Shown piece by piece: positions 28,647 through 31,512 of a stretch of DNA of 45,000 bases. A model generated the notes under the pieces. It ran no database searches, was not told where the DNA came from, and saw only the letters and a program-made list of their open reading frames with translations. Positions within the stretch are counted from its first letter, which is position 1. Every line of letters begins with the position of its first letter. A program made the position numbers and the translations under genes. This stretch comes from Thermus hydrothermalis (lineage in GTDB: Bacteria; Deinococcota; Deinococci; Deinococcales; Thermaceae). The DNA lies in NCBI RefSeq assembly GCF_022760925.1, contig NZ_JAKTNT010000018.1:1-45000 (forward strand). Reading direction: 5' to 3'.

Positions 28647-30889
<2,243 letters not shown>

Positions 30890-30902
30890 ACGTGCCCCCC
30901 GC

Positions 30903-30950
30903 AAAGAAAAGCTCCCGGGGCGGGCCCGGGAAGCCAGGCTTCCCAGGCCC
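30903..30950 (-). promoter_or_regulatory. lysJ attenuator: antiterminator and terminator hairpins
   Basis: Read on the minus strand. Hairpin A: GGGAAG (30944-30939) with CTTCCC (30933-30928), extended by three pairs, one of them G-T. Hairpin B: TCCCGGG (30931-30925) with CCCGGGA (30919-30913), loop 5 nt, followed by GCTTTTCTTT, a rho-independent terminator located 14 nt before the lysJ ATG. A and B share bases 30931-30925 and cannot form together. A ribosome at the leader stop (30955-30953) would cover the left arm of A and let B form; a ribosome stalled on the Lys codon (30961-30959) would leave A free. Confidence 0.65.
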
Positions 30951-30952
30951 CG

Positions 30953-30976
30953 TTAGGTTTTGCCCCGGGCGGCCAT
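30953..30976 (-). CDS. lysJ leader peptide (MAARGKT)
   Basis: A 7-residue open frame, MAARGKT, with CGG (Arg) and AAA (Lys) codons, starting 9 nt after the -10 box, so nearly leaderless. It lies directly upstream of the two competing hairpins and has the placement expected of a leader peptide for amino-acid-controlled attenuation. Leader-peptide attenuation is known for the main lysine cluster of T. thermophilus. Only one Lys and one Arg codon are present, fewer than usual, which lowers confidence. Confidence 0.55.
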   Translation of the reverse strand: MAARGKT

Positions 30977-30985
30977 CTCTCTTCC

Positions 30986-31014
30986 AGGGTAGGGGGCTTG
31001 CCCCCCGGTGTCAA
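30986..31014 (-). promoter_or_regulatory. lysJ promoter, TTGACA-17-TACCCT
   Basis: Minus strand: consensus -35 TTGACA (31014-31009), 17-nt spacer, -10 TACCCT (30991-30986). Overlaps the divergent folK promoter, so the two may interfere. Confidence 0.8.
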
Positions 31015-31025
31015 CGGGATAGACT
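30998..31025 (+). promoter_or_regulatory. folK promoter, TTGCCC-16-TAGACT
   Basis: -35 TTGCCC (30998-31003), 16-nt spacer, -10 TAGACT (31020-31025), then 7 nt to GTG 31033. Confidence 0.65.
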
Positions 31026-31032
31026 TGGGGGC

Positions 31033-31512
31033 GTGCTGGCCTACGTGGGGCTGGGTTCCAACCTGGGGGACCGGGCGGGCTACCTCTTGGCCGCCGTGTC
31101 CCTCCTCTCCCGCCTGCCCAAGACCCGTCTTCTCCGCCTTTCTCCCGTGTACGAGACGGCGCCCGTGGGCCCCCCGCAACCCCCCTATTTGAACCTGGTG
31201 GCGGAGTTGGACACGGGTTTGGACCCCAGGGAGCTCCTCCAGGCCCTCCTGGAGGTGGAAAGGGCCCTGGGCCGGGAGCGCAAGGAGCGCTGGGGCCCGA
31301 GGACCATTGACCTGGACCTCCTCCTCTACGGGGATCTGGTCCTGGAGGAGGAAGGGCTTCAGGTGCCTCACCCGAGGCTCCACGAGCGGGCCTTCGTCTT
31401 GGTGCCCCTTCTGGACCTCCTCCCCGAGGGGCGGCACCCGGTGCTGGGGGTACGCTTCGCCGAGCTCTTGGCGGCCCTTGACGCCTCCGGGGTTTCGCCC
31501 CTTGTGCTATAG
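31033..31512 (+). CDS. folK: 2-amino-4-hydroxy-6-hydroxymethyldihydropteridine pyrophosphokinase FolK
   Basis: A 159-residue enzyme that transfers pyrophosphate from ATP to 6-hydroxymethyl-dihydropterin in folate synthesis. LAYVGLGSNLGDR opens the protein, so GTG 31033 is the start; a longer in-frame start would read across the promoters. RTIDLDLLLYGD (Asp-x-Asp binding magnesium) and LQVPHPRLHERAFVLVPL are the family signatures. Folate production links it functionally to glyA and the purine operon nearby. Confidence 0.95.
   Translation: MLAYVGLGSNLGDRAGYLLAAVSLLSRLPKTRLLRLSPVYETAPVGPPQPPYLNLVAELDTGLDPRELLQALLEVERALGRERKERWGPRTIDLDLLLYGDLVLEEEGLQVPHPRLHERAFVLVPLLDLLPEGRHPVLGVRFAELLAALDASGVSPLVL

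Follow-up and report, generated by a model that had tools for sequence, protein, structure and literature searches.

Sequence, conservation and predicted RNA folding make it highly likely that a lysine-responsive, ribosome-mediated transcription attenuator controls lysJ-lysK in Thermus hydrothermalis. The DNA analyzed was a stretch of 45,000 nucleotides (hereafter ‘the window’), in which both genes lie on the minus strand. The lysJ gene (29711..30889), encoding [LysW]-aminoadipate semialdehyde transaminase (NCBIfam NF042418, 792 bits against a cut-off of 700), starts with the ATG at 30889 and overlaps by 4 nt with lysK (28647..29714), encoding [LysW]-lysine hydrolase (NF003367, 476 bits against a cut-off of 363). 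Upstream of lysJ, folK is divergently oriented, with a GTG start at 31033 on the plus strand. The sequence TAGACT (31020..31025, plus strand), the probable -10 element of folK, was found in 16 of 26 Thermus genomes and was missing in nine, the remaining locus being cut off. It adjoins the -35 element of lysJ on its upstream side and is located 7 nt before the folK GTG (window positions 31020-31035, plus strand), so that folK appears to be leaderless too.

All parts of the proposed attenuator are located on the minus strand upstream of the lysJ ATG. The -35 element TTGACA (31009..31014) is invariant in the 26 Thermus genomes, and a spacer of 17 nt (17-18 nt across these genomes) separates it from the -10 element TACCCT (30986..30991), which lies 7-9 nt from the leader ATG in every one of them. 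Judging from this spacing, transcription is expected to start at about 30980-30978, approximately 6-8 nt past the -10 element, so the leader would have almost no untranslated 5' end. The leader frame, found from the sequence and by comparison within Thermus, consists of seven codons, ATG GCC GCC CGG GGC AAA ACC TAA (MAARGKT; 30953..30976), in which codon 4 is the Arg codon CGG (30967-30965) and codon 6, the Lys codon AAA (30959..30961), is the candidate control codon. Codons 3-5 include region 1 (GCCCGGGG, 30963..30970), which is complementary to regions 2 and 4, as seen in the folds of the free RNA and of its 5' part. A consensus promoter and a MAARGKT frame with CGG and AAA codons had been proposed from the sequence alone, and all of these parts are indeed present.

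Two hairpins follow. Hairpin A (regions 2:3; 30924..30948), the putative antiterminator, was identified from sequence and folding as an 11-bp stem with a CTG loop, GCCTGGGAAGC-CTG-GCTTCCCGGGC (30948-30924), with 99.6% of cells paired among 22 distinct sequences. Hairpin B (regions 3:4; 30912..30932), the terminator stem indicated by a terminator scan and folding, is followed by CTTTTCTTT. The T-run TTTTCTTT of the predicted terminator (30903..30910), located by sequence, terminator scan and comparison within Thermus, is separated by 13 nt from the lysJ ATG. Because A and B have bases 30932-30924 in common, they are mutually exclusive in silico. The sequence-only reading had already recognized both hairpins and their overlap, but had drawn A too short: it was placed at 30944-30928, with B at 30931-30913, the shared bases at 30931-30925, and 14 nt rather than 13 nt remaining before the ATG.

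To examine conservation, we used 27 Thermus genomes, one of which (G011) belongs to the same species as the window. All contain lysJ, and in 26 of them it is preceded by the promoter, the seven-codon frame, hairpin A, the terminator and the T-run. The leader ATG and the Lys AAA are invariant (26/26). The frame is always seven codons long and contains no indels or frameshifts, whereas indels occur on both sides of it, and the distance from the stop codon to hairpin A varies from 3 to 5 nt. Codons 2, 3 and 7 are variable, and the stop codons interchange (TGA in 16 genomes, TAA in eight and TAG in two). AAA is the minority Lys codon, accounting for 30 of 403 Lys codons in the lysJ orthologues (30 AAA versus 373 AAG) and for 15 of 115 in five genes of the window. 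Nine of the 26 genomes lack the folK-type upstream sequence and one more is cut off there, and all of them retain the element; thus, the element goes with lysJ.

A scan for the hairpin-A pattern gave matches in 24 of the 27 Thermus genomes, and 23 genomes from other genera of the family gave none. Within Thermus, the pattern is missing in G005 and G020, where the stem begins with GCCCGGG, and in G010, where the element itself is gone. Two additional matches occurred in G009 and G021, where the leader arrangement was not seen. In G010 (L004), neither the leader nor the two hairpins remain, and a TTGACA/TAGCCT promoter immediately precedes the lysJ ribosome-binding site; the main lysine cluster still has an intact leader in this genome (L056). 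With a promoter straight before lysJ and no attenuator, G010 provides a natural comparison.

The generic terminator scan was not significant, with six terminators found against 5.6 expected. Therefore, it is conservation that bears the case. Nine of the 11 pairs of hairpin A never vary in Thermus, so covariation is uninformative; the compensatory changes that the sequence-only reading had suggested seeking cannot be expected within a genus whose stems are nearly invariant. The supporting evidence lies outside the genus: in nine genomes from three further lineages of the order, lysJ is preceded by leaders that keep this layout but differ in sequence, namely MLPRSRKPRHRG[LS]G in g2, MFASSRKP[MV]QREVG in g3 and MK[AVT][LW]KPRKPEVRGKP in f4-g13. 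Their hairpins are also unlike in sequence and show the same overlap of A and B. The RKP motif is shared with one Thermus leader (MAARRKP in G007), which suggests a common origin on the basis of these sequences. Besides G010, the lysJ leader is missing in G049, G032, G038 and G058.

We folded the RNA at 37 C with the ribosome-covered part masked; counted from the first base of the codon in the P site, the footprint extended 15 nt. For the window, a Lys codon in the A site gave a probability of 0.98 for A, and the stop codon at that site gave a probability of 1.00 for B. The corresponding means over the 26 genomes were 0.95 and 0.94, and at 65 C they were 0.92 and 0.95. The fold changes between codon 6/7 and the stop codon. 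The switch holds for footprints of 14-16 nt, but with 12-13 nt the probability of B at the stop falls to 0.35-0.69. There were two exceptions: in L015 the terminator is favored even at Lys, and in L005 the antiterminator is favored even at the stop. Among 1000 dinucleotide shuffles of the post-leader segment, none gave an equally strong stall-dependent switch.

As a positive control, we used the leader that precedes the main lysine cluster (homocitrate synthase), MLARAKKLGRRGVG and its close variants, which we found in 25 Thermus genomes as well as in G049. The predicted switch falls right past a Lys codon, the second one in most of the Thermus leaders shown and the first one in L056 and L183. 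In g2, g3 and f4-g13, the antiterminator is lost exactly past the Lys of RKP, so that in these leaders, as in the main-cluster leader, a Lys codon is the final position at which a stalled ribosome leaves the antiterminator free to form. The f4-g13 case is weaker, with an antiterminator probability of no more than about 0.4 (37 C) or 0.2 (65 C). Conservation and, in silico, masked folding and shuffles thus support the earlier proposal of a leader-peptide attenuator for lysJK in which A would act as antiterminator and B as terminator, the choice being made by the position of the ribosome.

From the sequence, its conservation and the predicted choice of fold, we infer the start of transcription, translation of the leader, termination and the response to lysine as follows. 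RNA polymerase would start a few bases ahead of the leader ATG, and a ribosome would load on the nearly leaderless seven-codon frame. When Lys-tRNA is ample, the ribosome would reach the stop codon and cover the left arm of A, and terminator B would form. When Lys-tRNA is scarce, it would wait at AAA with its leading edge just before hairpin A; A would then form and sequester the left arm of B, letting transcription go on into lysJK. Points that speak against this attenuator reading are the single Lys control codon, since control codons are usually multiple, the lack of covariation in the nearly invariant stems, the dependence of the predicted switch on footprint length, the exceptions L015 and L005, the predicted fold of the untranslated RNA and the genomes in which the leader is missing.

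The free RNA in full length is predicted to form hairpin A (2:3) together with a pairing of regions 1 and 4, and not B; in the 5' part, region 1 can pair with region 2. Therefore, the untranslated RNA should read through at equilibrium, although the order of folding during transcription could alter this. Because A is predicted to form here without any ribosome, and because terminator-like sites are frequent by chance, we considered whether the small frame is spurious and the hairpins merely constitute a partial terminator that sets a basal level of lysJK, or whether A and B act without translation. However, the ATG and the Lys codon are invariant, the stop codons interchange and the frame is free of indels, and in several leaders of unlike sequence a Lys codon stands at the switch point. 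We consider this explanation very unlikely. Still less credible is a ligand-binding riboswitch (lysine L-box) or a T-box in place of a leader peptide. Such an RNA would fit the position ahead of lysine genes and the pairing of an antiterminator with a terminator, but no aptamer is apparent: an Rfam cmscan of the region gave no match at the gathering threshold, its matches with E<=1 being at chance level and far below gathering scores, and only about 30 nt of RNA precede hairpin A, which is too short for a known aptamer.

The Arg codon requires separate consideration, as the sequence-only reading had taken both Arg and Lys to be read by the leader. Among the 26 Thermus genomes, codon 4 is CGG in 18, CGC in one and TGG (Trp) in seven. 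Mapped on the lysJ tree, the Trp label requires about six changes, three of them forced by branches with good support; one of the six concerns a Trp in an f4 leader that does not stand at the homologous position. These repeated flips between Arg and Trp indicate that the Arg codon is not maintained, and the claim of dual reading in Thermus is not supported. Both region 2 and region 4 are possible pairing partners of the CCYGGG in codons 3-5, and a C-to-U change there keeps a G-U pair, which may be the reason why only this change is common at codon 4; in each of L023 and L024, one pair is broken. The Arg/Trp codon is thus probably retained for RNA pairing through the CCYGGG of region 1, and not for arginine sensing. 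We also weighed a dual attenuator in which lysJK opens on a stall at either CGG or Lys and is thereby linked to both pathways. In the model a stall at codon 4 also favors A, but any stall ahead of Lys has the same effect, so that the prediction is not specific to Arg. In g2, g3 and f4-g13, the leaders place Arg beside Lys (RKP) and have further Arg codons, and the two next-best aminotransferase paralogues examined fall below the acetylornithine aminotransferase cut-off; set against the Trp codons of seven Thermus genomes, this leaves the dual attenuator an unlikely explanation. Reading of both Arg and Lys may, from their sequences, suit the longer RKP-containing leaders of other genera.

In g2 and g3, the lysJ leaders L099-L102 have two to four Arg codons beside one Lys. 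These genomes lack a Thermus-type homocitrate synthase. Lysine synthesis by the DAP route might have let their leaders shift to arginine, but dapB over the cut-off is likewise missing. In the Thermus genome G000, a lysA-like gene over its curated cut-off is located at G000:C1:27515-28636, although this genome has the aminoadipate-route genes and no dapB was seen in it.

In Thermus thermophilus, the main (homocitrate synthase) lysine cluster is reported to be under attenuation, and control by the arginine repressor (ArgR) is reported as well. This species is described as making arginine by the classical route and lysine by a LysW-mediated one (PMC10433800). We found no report on attenuation of lysJK in the open literature. 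The main-cluster leader and the lysJ leader belong to the same pathway, and both have a near-leaderless start, a Lys AAA at the predicted switch point and an antiterminator that overlaps a terminator with a TTTTC T-run. They differ in that the former has 14 codons with AAA AAA and the latter seven with a single AAA, and their stems are of unrelated sequence in unlinked operons. The lysJ element would very probably be a second lysine leader-peptide attenuator in Thermus, a known kind of switch at a site not covered by any report we found.

With the enterobacterial trp, his, leu and thr attenuators, the lysJ element shares a leader frame with a control codon, mutually exclusive 2:3 and 3:4 hairpins and a U-run terminator. 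Unlike them, it has no room for a Shine-Dalgarno-led leader, and it has one control codon where classical leaders have several. In classical attenuators, a protector (1:2) hairpin causes termination without translation, whereas the free lysJ RNA is predicted to read through, unlike that of E. coli trp, as region 1 can pair with region 4 while 2:3 forms. A further, tentative idea, which we regard as possible but doubtful, is that the element is a minimal translation-dependent OFF switch, with a leaderless seven-codon leader, one control codon and four regions that are near-copies of the self-complementary CCYGGG. The untranslated RNA would then read through (1:4 with 2:3), only a ribosome that finishes the leader would terminate transcription, and related genera with adjacent Arg-Lys codons would read both amino acids.

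A scan of this genome with the promoter and ATG pattern gave 28 matches, compared with none for the reversed control; the genes behind them were named by reading the sequences, not by family search. Short frames with matching amino acids also precede hcs (Lys) and lysJ (Lys). Near-leaderless frames with terminator-like hairpins were seen at G000 C4:40656 (L140), where a Leu/Val/Ile-rich frame precedes the acetolactate synthase large subunit; at C13:20941 (L149), where a Leu/Ile-rich frame precedes a leuC-like gene; and at C13:61778 (L150), where a Phe/Tyr-rich frame precedes a DAHP-synthase-like gene. Another near-leaderless frame, MRPRLLNNG (L134; G000:C2:121701-121742, minus strand), has two Asn codons and precedes a gene for what looks like an archaeal-type aspartyl/asparaginyl-tRNA synthetase. 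It is followed by GC-rich alternative hairpins with no clear T-run, and is a possible Asn-sensing leader. Leader peptides of this near-leaderless type thus seem to be commonplace in Thermus, and the lysJ case would be ordinary in kind. If the attenuator reading is true, then two unlinked operons of one pathway in Thermus would be under the same kind of lysine-tRNA control, and a seven-codon leader with a single control codon would be able to persist across a genus.
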